Origin: Olsenella sp. KGMB02461
GTDB lineage: Bacteria; Actinomycetota; Coriobacteriia; Coriobacteriales; Atopobiaceae
Direction: 5' to 3'
Length of the DNA: 64,000 nucleotides
Assembly (NCBI RefSeq): GCF_012584445.1
Contig: NZ_JABAHI010000008.1
Location: 372,001 to 436,000 of the forward strand
Shown in pieces: positions 3,636 through 64,000 of the stretch; the stretch's first letter is position 1; the number at the start of each line of letters is the position of its first letter. The notes under the pieces are model-generated. The model saw only the letters and a program-made list of their open reading frames with translations. It was not told where the DNA came from and ran no database searches. The position numbers were made by a program, and so were the translations under genes.

Positions 3636-6353
3636 TCACTTGGCTTCGGCCCAAGTGTTGCCCCAAGAGACGTCGGCTACCAAAGGAACCCGCAGGTCAA
3701 CCACCGATTCCATAGTGGCTTTCACCAATGCCGCAACCTCCTTGAGCTCTGTCTCGGGCACCTGCAAATCCAGCTCGTCGTGGATTTGCATAATGAGTTC
3801 GCTTTGATAATTGCCCTGGTTAAGCGCCTGTTCCACGCGACTCATAGCTATTTTGATGATATCGGCGGCACTTCCCTGCATAGGATGGTTCATAGCAGTG
3901 CGTTCGGCGGCCGATCTCACCATGGCATTGCGCGCCCCAATGTCCGGCACCAGGCGCCTACGACCCCACATGGTGCTTACAAACCCCAGCTTACGAGCCT
4001 CTTCCACCGTTTCATCCAAATAAGCGCGAACCCCTGGGTAGGCACGGTAATAGGAGTCGATGATCTCCTGAGCTTCCTTCTGAGGAATGTGAAGGGTTTG
4101 TGCCAAGCCATAGCCCTGCTGCCCGTAGACAATGCCAAAGTTCACTGCTTTGGCCCTAGACCGCAGCGCAGGAGTCACCTCAGACACAGGCACGCCAAAG
4201 ACGCGAGCTGCAGTCTCTGCGTGGAAATCCTCCCCTTCCACAAAAGCCTTTATGAGATGCTCGTCGCCCGAGAGATGCGCCAGCAGACGCAGCTCGATTT
4301 GCGAGTAGTCCACCGCCAGGAACTTCCAGCCCTGAGGCACGGTGAAGGCGGACCGCACGCGTCGGCCCTCTTCAGACTTCACGGGAATGTTCTGCAAGTT
4401 GGGATCTGAGCTGGAGATGCGGCCTGTAGCAGTCACCGTCTGGTTGAAGGTGGTATGGATGCGTCCGTCAGCCCGAATCTCTTGGGGCAATGCCGCCAGA
4501 TACGTGCGTGCGATCTTGGATTTCTCGCGCCACTGGATGACCTGAGCCACCACCGGATAGGTTTGCGCCAGCTCCTCAAGCACTTTGGCATTGGTGGAAT
4601 AGTAACCGCGCTTGGTCTTCTTAAGCCCTGCCGTAGGCAGTCCCAGGCCATCAAACAAAACATTAGACAACTGCGAGGGAGAGCCGATGTTGAACTCTTG
4701 ACCCGCAGTCTCGTAAATCTGCTGAGCCAGGATTGATAGTTGGGCCTGCAGTTGTGCGTCCTGCTCGGCAAAGACGGAAGCGTCTGCGTGCATGCCCGTA
4801 CGCTCCATTTGTGCCAAGACGGGCAACAGAGGCATCTCGATCTCAAAGAAGCAGGGCTTGGATCCCGTTTTGTCCAAAGCCGCCGATAAGGGCTCCACGC
4901 AGCGCTGGGCCACCAATGCCGAGAAGGGCGCCTCCTTCACGTCCTGAGGGCGGGAGAGCTCCAGCCACTCTTGGGCGAGGTCGTCGGGGGTGTATTCGGT
5001 CTTGGTGGAGTCCAGCAGGTACGCAGCCACCCCGCAGTCGAAGATGGCATCGGGAGCCACCTGATCGATGTCTAGAGCGGCTGGCTGCGAGGAGTCCACA
5101 GGATAGACCTGGTGGATGAGATCTTTCAGGGCGCAGGAAGCCACCCGGTGGGAGCTCAGGGCATCCACCAGGCGATCGGCGGCCTCGGCGCCCTCGAAGC
5201 GCAACAGATGAGTGGGCGTAGCCACCCAGAGGCGCGAAGAAGGCTCAAAGAGACTCTGGGTCTCTGGCACTTCCAGCGCACAGCCCAACCAGGCGCCCTC
5301 AGCTATCGCCTTTTGCCACGCATCCTGGGCAGCCTCGCCCTCCAGGGTCTCAGGGACCTCCAAAGTCAGGGAGACCTCAGAGGTCTGCTCGCCGTCGGCC
5401 AAGCTCAGAAGGCGTGTGGCAATGGAGGTGAAGCCCAAGGCAGTCAGCGCTTCTTTGGCAGTAGGCACGTCGAAGGTAGGAAATCTTGTCTCTGCAAGAT
5501 CTACGTCCAGCGGGGCATCGGTACGGATGGTTGCCACCTTGCGCGAGAGCAACGCGTCCTCTTTGTGGGCTCTCAAGTTCTCGCCCATCTTGCCCTTGAC
5601 CTCGTCTGCATGAGCCAGAACCTCGTCAAGAGTGCCATAGGTGGCCAGCAGCTGCTGGGCCTTCTTGGGACCAATGCCGGGTACGCCCGGGATATTGTCT
5701 GAGCTGTCTCCCTTAAGGCCGTAGAAGTCAGGCACCAGCTCTGGTGTCACGCCACCGTACAAGTCTTCTACCGCGGCGGGAGTCATTATCTGCACGTCAC
5801 TCATGCCCTTGCGGGTGGAGACTATCTGCACGTGCTCATTGGAGAGCTGGTACATGTCGCGGTCGCCGGTGACCAGAAGCATGTCATAACCTTCGGCAGC
5901 CCCTTGGCGAGCCAGTGTGCCCAGAAGGTCGTCGCCCTCCCAGCCTTCCAGCTCGAAGACCGGCACGCTCAATGCGGCCAGCACATCTTTGATCTCGCCA
6001 AACTGAGGCGCCAGATCGGGGTCCATGGGCGGTCTCTGGGCTTTATAGCTGGGGAGCATCTCCATACGCACTTTGGGCTTGCCCTTGTCAAAGCACACCG
6101 CGACGCCCCAGGGTTTGAAGTCCTCCACCAGCTTGAGAAACATGGAGAGAAAGCCAAAGACGGCGTTGGTGGGCACCCCTTGAGGAGAAGTCATCTGGGC
6201 AGATATGGCGTGAAAGGCCCTATGCATAAGGGAGTTGCCGTCTACCACCGCCACTTTGGGGCGACCGTCTTGAGGAAGCGAAGAAGAGCCTGCAGGAGAT
6301 GCGTGGCTTGAAGTCTGAGTAGAGCTGGTGCTACCCGTGTTTGATCCAGTCAT
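3636..6353 (-). CDS. polA: DNA polymerase I
   Basis: A 905-residue family A polymerase. A Ser/Thr-rich N-terminal extension of about 30 residues leads into the 5' nuclease domain (VDGNSLMHRAF; GDSSDNIPGVPGIGPKKA). The middle domain lacks a clear DxE pair (the matching stretch reads LGCALEVPE), so the 3'-5' exonuclease is probably inactive, as in many Gram-positive bacteria. The polymerase domain has motif A DYSQIELRLLAHLSGD, motif B RSRAKAVNFGIVYG and motif C IMQIHDEL. It fills gaps in repair and removes Okazaki primers. It stands alone between the tRNA pair and glnA, transcribed away from glnA. Confidence 0.97.
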   Translation of the reverse strand: MTGSNTGSTSSTQTSSHASPAGSSSLPQDGRPKVAVVDGNSLMHRAFHAISAQMTSPQGVPTNAVFGFLSMFLKLVEDFKPWGVAVCFDKGKPKVRMEMLPSYKAQRPPMDPDLAPQFGEIKDVLAALSVPVFELEGWEGDDLLGTLARQGAAEGYDMLLVTGDRDMYQLSNEHVQIVSTRKGMSDVQIMTPAAVEDLYGGVTPELVPDFYGLKGDSSDNIPGVPGIGPKKAQQLLATYGTLDEVLAHADEVKGKMGENLRAHKEDALLSRKVATIRTDAPLDVDLAETRFPTFDVPTAKEALTALGFTSIATRLLSLADGEQTSEVSLTLEVPETLEGEAAQDAWQKAIAEGAWLGCALEVPETQSLFEPSSRLWVATPTHLLRFEGAEAADRLVDALSSHRVASCALKDLIHQVYPVDSSQPAALDIDQVAPDAIFDCGVAAYLLDSTKTEYTPDDLAQEWLELSRPQDVKEAPFSALVAQRCVEPLSAALDKTGSKPCFFEIEMPLLPVLAQMERTGMHADASVFAEQDAQLQAQLSILAQQIYETAGQEFNIGSPSQLSNVLFDGLGLPTAGLKKTKRGYYSTNAKVLEELAQTYPVVAQVIQWREKSKIARTYLAALPQEIRADGRIHTTFNQTVTATGRISSSDPNLQNIPVKSEEGRRVRSAFTVPQGWKFLAVDYSQIELRLLAHLSGDEHLIKAFVEGEDFHAETAARVFGVPVSEVTPALRSRAKAVNFGIVYGQQGYGLAQTLHIPQKEAQEIIDSYYRAYPGVRAYLDETVEEARKLGFVSTMWGRRRLVPDIGARNAMVRSAAERTAMNHPMQGSAADIIKIAMSRVEQALNQGNYQSELIMQIHDELDLQVPETELKEVAALVKATMESVVDLRVPLVADVSWGNTWAEAK

Positions 6354-60950: not shown

Positions 60951-61847
60951 TCAAAGCCAAGGAGTTATGTCGAGCTCCTCAGCTACGCGTCGATATTCAA
61001 CAATACTTGAGCTATTTGTTTTAATTCCAATCTCATCAAACACGCCAACGAATCTGTAGGCTTTGCGCCCCAACTCGTCAAGGCCTTGAGCGAACGTGAT
61101 GCGTGCTATGTCATCACCCGCGCTACTTAATTCATACTCATATTGAGAATACAGCGTCTTTCCATCCTGCGAAATAACATTTGTAATTCCGAACGCTGCG
61201 GAGGAAAAGGATCCATCGGACATCTCGATGCCCAGCTTCGGACACCAAAGGTAATAGTTGTTATGGTGAAGCGAGAAAAAGCACTTCTGCATACGTTTCG
61301 TGTCATGACCAAAGCAGCGATAGACATCAGAGATCGTGCGGAAGGCTAAACCATCTGAGATTCTAATAGCACCTCGTTCCCTGCACTTCTCCCAAGGAGG
61401 AATACCTGGCATCCAAGGTTCGGGTTGCAGTTTTTTCATACGCTGGCGAATGAGCCTCACTGCTCGGTCGATGTCGTGCTCCATTTGCTCGTAGGAGCCA
61501 AATGCTCTGATGTGTACAGCTTCATACCCTGCATCCTCGCTCACAGCATTGAGACAGGCCGCAATATCCCTCTCCCGCGTCCTATCACTGAGTTGTTGGG
61601 CCTTGTTGAGATGGTAGGCTTCGTCGCACTCAATGCCCACATTCACGGCAGGAAAGTATAGGTCGATAAGCGCATAGCCGTTGTCGCGCCGCACGTAGCG
61701 TTGCGTTTCCGGCTGCAAGGTAGGTTCTGCCAGCCGTTGCCATACAGCATTGATAACATAGTTCTCATAATCCTTGCGCTTAGTACGAGATAAAACATGT
61801 ACTAAATAATCCCGCCTCTCATCAACTACATAAGCTCTTCTGTTCAT
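60951..61847 (-). CDS. PvuRts1I/AbaSI-like modification-dependent restriction endonuclease
   Basis: A 298-residue protein. Residues 28-80 (YVINAVWQRL, ETQRYVRRDNGYALIDLYF, PAVNVGIECDEAYH) match the Vsr-like nuclease domain of PvuRts1I-type enzymes; D62, E73, D75 and H79 are likely catalytic. The C-terminal half (about 150-275; YYLWCPKLGIEM, LGRKAYRFVGVFDEIG) fits the SRA-like domain that senses hydroxymethylated or glucosylated cytosine. It would cut phage DNA carrying such bases and needs no methylase. Ribosome site AGAAAG is weak. It begins the accessory end of the window. Confidence 0.75.
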   Translation of the reverse strand: MNRRAYVVDERRDYLVHVLSRTKRKDYENYVINAVWQRLAEPTLQPETQRYVRRDNGYALIDLYFPAVNVGIECDEAYHLNKAQQLSDRTRERDIAACLNAVSEDAGYEAVHIRAFGSYEQMEHDIDRAVRLIRQRMKKLQPEPWMPGIPPWEKCRERGAIRISDGLAFRTISDVYRCFGHDTKRMQKCFFSLHHNNYYLWCPKLGIEMSDGSFSSAAFGITNVISQDGKTLYSQYEYELSSAGDDIARITFAQGLDELGRKAYRFVGVFDEIGIKTNSSSIVEYRRVAEELDITPWL

Positions 61848-62764: not shown

Positions 62765-63382
62765 ATGGATAGTACAACATATGGTTATGCTCGCGTTTCG
62801 GCTAAAGATCAGTATCTCGACAGGCAGATCATCGCCCTCGAGGAATTTCCGGTGCGAAAGGACAAGATATACGCCGATAAGGCAAGCGGCAAGAATTTCG
62901 ATCGCCCGGCATATAAGCAGCTGGTCTCCAAGATCAATCCAGGGGATGTGATTGTTGTTAAGAGCATTGACAGACTCGGGAGAAACTACAACGAGATACT
63001 CGAGGAGTGGCGCTTTATCACAAAGGAGAAGCAGTGCGCGATAGTGATCATCGACATGCCTCTTCTCGACACACGGGTGATATCAGGCGGATTGACCGGG
63101 GTTTTCATAGCCGACCTCGTCCTTCAGATACTCAGCTACGTTGCGCAGGTCGAACGTGATAACACCAAACAAAGGCAAGCCGAAGGCATAGCAGCGGCAA
63201 AGGCTCGAGGGGTCCGTTTCGGTAGACCCCCTAAGAAGCGGCCAAAGAATTACATGGAAGTCAAGAAAGCCTTTCTTACGGGAGTATTAACGCGAAAAGA
63301 GGCGGCGGCCAAGTTGCAGGTCGGAACAACAACGCTTTCAAAGTGGATCAAAGAAGACGGAAACCAACATGTTTACCGATAG
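62765..63382 (+). CDS. Serine recombinase, resolvase/DNA-invertase type
   Basis: A 205-residue recombinase. YARVSAKDQYLDRQIIAL holds the catalytic serine, SIDRLGRNYNEILEEWRFI the arginine segment, and GRPPKKRPKNYMEV begins a short DNA-binding helix-turn-helix (RKEAAAKLQVGTTTLSKWI). The size matches Hin-like invertases and Tn3-like resolvases, not large phage integrases. ATG 62765 lies six bases after AAGGAGG. A transposase is not visible, so DNA inversion or resolution at nearby sites is plausible. Confidence 0.9.
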   Translation: MDSTTYGYARVSAKDQYLDRQIIALEEFPVRKDKIYADKASGKNFDRPAYKQLVSKINPGDVIVVKSIDRLGRNYNEILEEWRFITKEKQCAIVIIDMPLLDTRVISGGLTGVFIADLVLQILSYVAQVERDNTKQRQAEGIAAAKARGVRFGRPPKKRPKNYMEVKKAFLTGVLTRKEAAAKLQVGTTTLSKWIKEDGNQHVYR

Positions 63383-63397
63383 TCAACTTGTTGGTTT
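63361..63397 (+). terminator. Stem-loop over the recombinase stop codon
   Basis: AAACCAACA (63361-63369) pairs with TGTTGGTTT (63389-63397); the stop lies in the loop. The T-tract is short. Confidence 0.5.
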
Positions 63398-63607
63398 CTG
63401 TCGTTCCACCGATAAGGCATTATGCTCTATCCGATAAGTCAAACTCCCATGGGCAATCGATGCCATTCTCTACATACATAGACCCAGGTCGAGCGGCGTT
63501 GGTTGGGATGCAGATGCGACGGCTCCCGAAGCGATATTGTCCTGCTTTTGTGCGGCGATTCGGTAATAACTACACGTGTGCCTAGCTTTCAGAAGATTCT
63601 CGGCAAA
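63398..63607. other. Non-coding stretch with CCGATA repeats
   Basis: CCGATAGTC (just before, at about 63376), CCGATAAGG (about 63410) and CCGATAAGTC (about 63430) are spaced direct repeats. A 41-codon frame at 63460-63585 has no recognisable match. CAAACG-type AT-rich sequence follows. Confidence 0.4.
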
Positions 63608-63739
63608 CGTAAAAGTAGACATTTTCGTCTATCCGAAATAAAACGGAAATGGTTAACGATCGATCTAAAAACTCTAGTTAAGGATTGTAGCAGATAATTA
63701 AGGTACTCCCTTCCGCAAATGTCTACCTTTACGGAAGGG
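63608..63739 (+). promoter_or_regulatory. Leader with paired repeats and a hairpin covering the ribosome site
   Basis: CGTAAAAGTAGACATTT (63608-63624) and AAATGTCTACCTTTACG (63717-63733) are complementary at 16 of 17 positions. A second pairing, CCCTTCCG (63708-63715) with CGGAAGGG (63732-63739), would bury the GGAAGGGG ribosome site of the next gene and put the second repeat in its loop. The first repeat can also fold alone (TAGAC/GTCTA, 63616-63631). Confidence 0.65.
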
Positions 63740-63748
63740 GTGAGAAGA

Positions 63749-64000
63749 GTGACTACACCATACAAAGTTTCTAAATATATCATTAGCCAGCCGCTCGATG
63801 AACATTCTATGCTGGTCTACAGCACACTCACCTCATCCCTTGTGTTATTGGAAAATGATCTGTACACAACCTATTTCGAAAACGCCTCTTTTGAAGACGA
63901 ATCCCTATGCCGACAGCTTGAAGAGATGGGCTTTTTGGCCGATGCTCAGCAGCCATCTCAGCTGTCTCAGCTATTGGACATAAGGAAGAGCGTCGTTGAG
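63749..64000 (+). CDS. Probable radical-SAM peptide maturase, N-terminus only
   Basis: From GTG 63749 the frame stays open for 84 codons to the window edge: TTPYKVSKYIISQPLDEHS, LVYSTLTSSLVLLENDLY and LCRQLEEMGFLADA. This pattern (a short 'sticky' domain with YNTLSG-like and GFL elements) is the usual N-terminal peptide-binding domain of SPASM radical-SAM enzymes that modify ribosomal peptides. The iron-sulfur motif itself lies outside the window. A GTG nine bases upstream is an alternative start. Confidence 0.6.
   Translation, partial: MTTPYKVSKYIISQPLDEHSMLVYSTLTSSLVLLENDLYTTYFENASFEDESLCRQLEEMGFLADAQQPSQLSQLLDIRKSVVE

Follow-up and report, generated by a model that had tools for sequence, protein, structure and literature searches.

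A probable invertible promoter upstream of a radical-SAM/SPASM operon in Olsenella sp. KGMB02461, with a predicted OFF-state hairpin over the ribosome site

The leader of a radical-SAM/SPASM gene at the end of the analysed window (64,000 nucleotides of Olsenella sp. KGMB02461, contig NZ_JABAHI010000008.1, positions 372,001 to 436,000) very probably belongs to a phase-variation inverton, located upstream of a radical-SAM/SPASM and E2/JAB/E1/EccC-like operon and predicted to form, in its OFF state, a hairpin over the Shine-Dalgarno (SD) sequence. Paired sites, a recombinase gene, spacings at helical turns and flipped orthologous segments together point to an invertible promoter. Sequence comparison establishes that the sites are paired and lie next to an invertase gene, that the family inverts, and how its promoter is arranged.

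Recombinase and paired sites

The putative switch consists of the following elements, in window coordinates:

62765-63382, + strand: serine recombinase (DNA invertase) gene, ~205 aa, with full-length catalytic domain and C-terminal HTH-like region
63608-63627, + strand: left recombination site CGTAAAAGTAGACATTTTCG, crossover dinucleotide AG at 63617-63618, family motif AAA.GTnnAC.TTT
63714-63733, - strand: right recombination site, reverse complement CGTAAAGGTAGACATTTGCG, crossover CT at 63723-63724
63619-63722, unstranded: invertible segment between the crossover points, ~104 bp; centre-to-centre distance 106 bp, ~10 helical turns; homologous segments are flipped in orthologous loci

The recombinase possesses a Resolvase domain (Pfam, 1.4e-30) and has Sin, gamma-delta resolvase and a DNA invertase as relatives in the PDB. 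Its best NCBIfam model is the Mpi-family master DNA invertase (NF009949), aligned over positions 5-199 of 204 with 57.6 bits, below the family cut-off of 272 bits. The gene lies directly upstream of the site pair, which follows 230 bp downstream of it. At the gene end, a 21-nt inverted repeat (63356-63402, 86% complementary) without a T run may serve as a terminator or insulate the switch from the invertase gene. A second invertase homologue of the same genome (L197, G000:C12:114300-114881) is 53% identical; the matching stretch is interrupted by an in-frame TAA, and a search beside it found no paired sites. Near the switch, the reverse strand (60951-61847) encodes a protein with a PvuRts1I-like N-terminal part and an SRA domain, i.e. 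a restriction enzyme of the modified-cytosine type.

The two arms are inverted copies of a 20 bp site (18/20 identical) separated by 86 bp, and the site itself is a dyad (CGnAAAnGTAGACnTTTnCG) with the asymmetric centre AG. No second pair of such sites was found in the genome.

Inversion is seen directly in orthologous loci. The segments of L144 and L146 are 92% identical when one is flipped, as against 56% unflipped; those of L186/L189 and L181/L200 are 93% and 96% identical when flipped. In all three cases the flanks are co-oriented and the arms are split: the outer halves keep their place beside the flanks and the inner halves travel with the segment, locating the crossover at the core of the site. 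The segments of L050/L173, L049/L051 and L163/L164 are also found in opposite orientation, and L106 is flipped relative to L055/L056 ahead of orthologous HTH and surface-protein genes. Judged by these comparisons, which concern orthologous loci and not the Olsenella copy, the family inverts in nature; the copy at 63608-63733 presumably does so today.

Homologous invertase loci

A strict pair was defined as inverted AAA.GTnnAC.TTT sites with a matching non-palindromic centre, and 140 distinct loci with recombinase homologues were searched. Such pairs are present in 56 of them, always downstream of the gene (shuffled flanks: 0/700), and the remaining 84 possess none under the strict motif. A smaller earlier test had returned pairs at 17 of 53 loci and at 0 of 71 control stretches. 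Centre-to-centre spacings peak at 104-107, 114-118, 125-128, 136-141 and 148-150 bp and are nearly absent from the gaps, a pattern of whole helical turns that fits a need for the sites to meet on one face of the helix. The periodicity at 10.5 bp per turn (Rayleigh R = 0.81) has p ~1e-16, or p ~6e-5 with each spacing counted once; these and the other p-values of the survey overstate independence because the loci are phylogenetically related.

Targets in the relatives, named by sequence inspection, are mostly surface proteins and NusG/UpxY/LoaP-like genes, a kind that heads polysaccharide loci and in these relatives probably heads exopolysaccharide loci. DNA methyltransferase or restriction-type genes are found as well, as are a few ATPases of conflict type. 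In the loci of the closest invertase relatives (L132 and L134, 69-72%), this switch type precedes DNA methyltransferase-like genes, which suggests phase-variable modification systems. Collinsella genomes (L108-L130) contain a conserved 107 bp element in 3-5 copies per genome, bounded by GTAGACTTTT (GTAGAC) inverted repeats. It was considered as a multi-copy inverton and rejected, as it always has one orientation relative to its flanks; three of these elements were compared with Rfam without a match.

Promoter and sequenced orientation

Segments with AC-type sites (GTACAC) carry an outward -10 element, TATAAT in nearly all of them, located 22-23 nt from the site in 18 of 23. For AG-type sites (GTAGAC), the type of the Olsenella switch, no outward -10 peak is present and the outward-promoter model was rejected. 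Their -10-like hexamer points inward, and 16 of 32 segments have it at a distance of exactly 17 bp from TAGACN, against a background of 0.93 per offset; without near-duplicates the peak holds 11 of 27, the maximum at any offset in 500 shuffles being 6. This distance implies that the recombination site itself supplies the -35 box. The corresponding elements of the Olsenella segment are predicted as follows:

63720-63725, - strand: -35 element TAGACA, contained in the right recombination site and directed leftward, into the segment
63697-63702, - strand: -10 element CTTAAT, homologous to TTTAAT, TTAAAT and TTCAAT in relatives, weak by consensus

A generic sigma-70 scan of this leader detected no promoter at threshold, and the promoter was resolved with the family profile only. 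Aligned in register with five relatives, the right end (TAGACA-N17-CTTAAT) scores 59 matches and the left end 34, and 59 was reached in 0 of 20,000 shuffles; by this alignment the right end is the promoter end. A promoter that lies within the segment and reverses with it is supported by the -10 profiles of the family, and for the Olsenella copy by homology. It would read away from the radical-SAM gene, so that the sequenced state is probably OFF. Since CTTAAT fits the consensus poorly and GATAAT at 63693-63698 points the other way, this call rests on homology.

In the proposed mechanism, the serine invertase (62765-63382) would recombine the inverted sites 63608-63627 and 63714-63733 and thereby flip ~104 bp. 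In the ON state, a promoter with its -35 in the recombination site and its -10 17 bp inside would read across the segment into the operon. In the OFF state, as sequenced, the promoter would read away from the operon and CCCTTCC, from the C-rich strand of the promoter spacer, would adjoin the SD. Read-through transcripts of the OFF state would then fold into the SD hairpin and the ribosome site would be closed.

Ribosome-site hairpin and alternative readings

63708-63714, + strand: anti-SD patch CCCTTCC, whose other strand is part of the promoter spacer; it adjoins the SD only in the sequenced orientation
63733-63740, + strand: SD GGAAGGGG, abutting the right recombination site, 8 nt 5' of the GTG at 63749

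The initial annotation had described a hairpin between the ribosome site and a patch 16 bases upstream. Its pairing is borne out, CCCTTCC being complementary to GGAAGGG of the ribosome site, although 18 nt separate the stem arms. With this hairpin the local fold amounts to -16.1 kcal/mol, versus -8.9 +/- 2.0 kcal/mol in shuffled patches (fraction at or below the observed value 0.003). The RNA folding recommended there gives z = -3.0 for 63608-64000, with the local hairpin beating nearly all shuffles, and the suggested two-state layout, in which the hairpin should close the ribosome site, gains support. The hairpin is plausible as an RNA element whose occurrence is set by DNA orientation, not by ligand or temperature.

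The energy of SD opening was computed in both orientations for 39 loci with assignable promoter end and start codon. Opening costs more OFF than ON in 38 of the 39, with a mean difference of 5.5 kcal/mol as against 3.2 kcal/mol for shuffled segments (Wilcoxon p = 3e-4). In this test the Olsenella SD requires 12.0 kcal/mol OFF and 9.2 kcal/mol ON, and in a separate calculation 12.2 and 8.2 kcal/mol, a modest difference of ~3-4 kcal/mol. Shuffled segments still yield 3.2 kcal/mol because the ON strand is G-rich; its G-skew is present at every tested locus and accounts for more than half of the asymmetry, so the lock may in part be a by-product, and the translational step is one that we infer. 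The inverton might accordingly act on transcription only, the SD hairpin being a passive result of dyad symmetry and base composition; we lean against this possibility but give it considerable weight. It agrees with the asymmetry of the shuffled segments and with the little or no effect at loci with a distant SD, such as L183 and L170. Against it stand the excess over the shuffles, the rarity of the Olsenella hairpin among shuffled patches, and the near-SD loci L105, L106, L195, L042 and L047, which rank at the extreme of theirs. In the preferred reading, the hairpin created by inversion would be a second, translational lock on OFF-state read-through transcripts and would lower translation in the cell. 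By extension, Coriobacteriia may possess a class of switches with two gates per flip, in which a site-borne -35 and an OFF-state anti-SD strand form a transcription-plus-translation lock, here on a RiPP/ubiquitin-like/EccC operon; we hold this proposal tentatively, its chances falling just short of even.

Three further readings were weighed. The sequenced orientation could be ON, with GATAAT as the -10 and the hairpin attenuating a short 5' leader when the operon is expressed. At 18 nt from the core of the right site, GATAAT has a position similar to that of TATAAT in AC-type segments, but the AG-type shows its sharp peak inward at 17 bp and none outward, the right end resembles the inward promoter ends of relatives, and an ON leader that buries its own SD would be self-defeating, which makes this reading improbable. 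A stand-alone riboswitch or RNA thermometer, the likeness drawn in the initial annotation, is very improbable. An SD hairpin and a competing pairing do exist, and the complementarity noticed between the hairpin loop and a segment about 100 bases upstream is real (18/20 complementary arms, the match lying 106 bp upstream). The competing segment, however, is the partner recombination site, the same complementarity is common to dozens of loci with otherwise different flanks and leaders, and the leader matches no Rfam covariance model even at E <= 1. The long-range pairing is explained by the inverted DNA sites and not by a ligand-sensing RNA; the dyad nature of both segments and the upstream serine recombinase gene had been overlooked. 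Least credible of all is that the sites form a resolvase res site or a regulator operator instead of an inversion substrate: the recombinase is indeed related to Sin and gamma-delta resolvases, but the sites are inverted and agree in their asymmetric dinucleotides, and orthologous loci contain the segment flipped, with exchanged arm halves.

Target operon

63749-64000, + strand: radical-SAM/SPASM maturase gene, start GTG, continuing past the window to G000:C12:437140 (L002:7140), 463 aa

The call of a radical-SAM peptide maturase, previously made from the N-terminal domain, gains support from the sequence past 64000. The protein matches Radical_SAM (Pfam, 1.2e-16). Peptide-maturase models of NCBIfam match it with values down to 3e-38, but none reaches its cut-off (best TIGR04334, 131 bits versus 600), so that it is not assigned to a named family. 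It possesses CNARCYYC (CxxxCxxC) and C-terminal SPASM-type cysteines (CADCPIFPICQGGC), and a 37-aa Cys ORF (MRIISKVTKENALKELKTRAMACSPHSMCPKCLRGRG, with CSPHSMCPKC, L002:7124-7237) overlaps the end of the gene. With CxxxCxxC, SPASM-type cysteines and a short Cys peptide beside the gene as candidate precursor, the locus has the features expected of a radical-SAM/SPASM RiPP maturase.

The maturase gene is followed by the 37-aa Cys peptide, a 63-aa ORF, E2-like, JAB-domain and ThiF/E1-like proteins and, further downstream, an EccC/FtsK-type ATPase, a weak WXG100-like protein and Sel1-repeat proteins. This operon (L002:7124-18000) looks like a system for ubiquitin-like conjugation that is linked to an ATPase of the secretion type. 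Among 379 genomes of the order, only 8 possess strong E1 orthologues, Olsenella sp. KGMB02461 included, and two more give weak matches. One genome (G165, L227, G165:C1:893000-905000) contains an orthologous E2/JAB/E1/EccC operon (E2 87%, E1 64% identical) that lacks the radical-SAM gene and has an AC-like inverton of its own ahead of it (reverse strand 5454-5599, spacing 126 bp, OFF by the direction of its TATAAT). Phase variation of the E2/JAB/E1/EccC part thus recurs with a different site type. Only an invertase-like fragment is found near that inverton. No inverton was found ahead of the more distant E1 orthologues (L228-L233).

Significance and comparison with known systems

A testable DNA switch replaces a puzzling RNA reading, and the invertase-inverton family to which it belongs is widespread in Coriobacteriia, with switches of the same design in numerous other gut bacteria of this relationship. 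The family provides a promoter whose -35 is common to the recombination site, as well as natural helical-phase data on synapsis over very short segments. The candidate double lock would account for silence in the OFF state even when transcripts read through. The comparison also indicates phase variation, in two families, of a ubiquitin-like E1/E2/JAB operon with an EccC-like ATPase, which hints that such an operon may be costly or conflict-related. Neither invertons in Coriobacteriia nor SD sequestration set by inversion were reported in the searchable literature, outside of which a key 2019 survey lies.

Salmonella Hin and phage Gin, like the invertase described here, belong to the serine recombinases and use dyad sites whose core is asymmetric. 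They invert large segments and need a Fis-bound enhancer, whereas the present segments comprise ~105-180 bp and show helical phasing. RecV, the recombinase of the Clostridioides difficile flagellar switch, belongs to the tyrosine family.

The flagellar switch resembles the present one in an orientation-specific leader acting after transcription initiation, but works through Rho termination (PMC7446863). In the cwpV switch of C. difficile, inversion likewise alters the leader RNA and the OFF transcript forms an inhibitory hairpin (PMC2784873). In cwpV, however, the promoter lies outside the segment and the hairpin has been proposed to terminate transcription (PMC2784873). In the Olsenella switch the promoter is predicted inside the segment and the hairpin covers the SD. 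The Mpi-type invertible promoters of Bacteroides fragilis capsule loci are the closest known kind, combining a serine invertase, short inverted sites and a promoter in the flipped segment (PMC4747536), and the prevalence of NusG/UpxY/LoaP-like and surface-protein targets among the relatives is a further likeness. In contrast to the 13 scattered segments of Mpi (PMC4747536), one local segment was found per invertase here, with a different site motif, an AG-type -35 built into the site, and a radical-SAM/E2-JAB-E1/EccC target.
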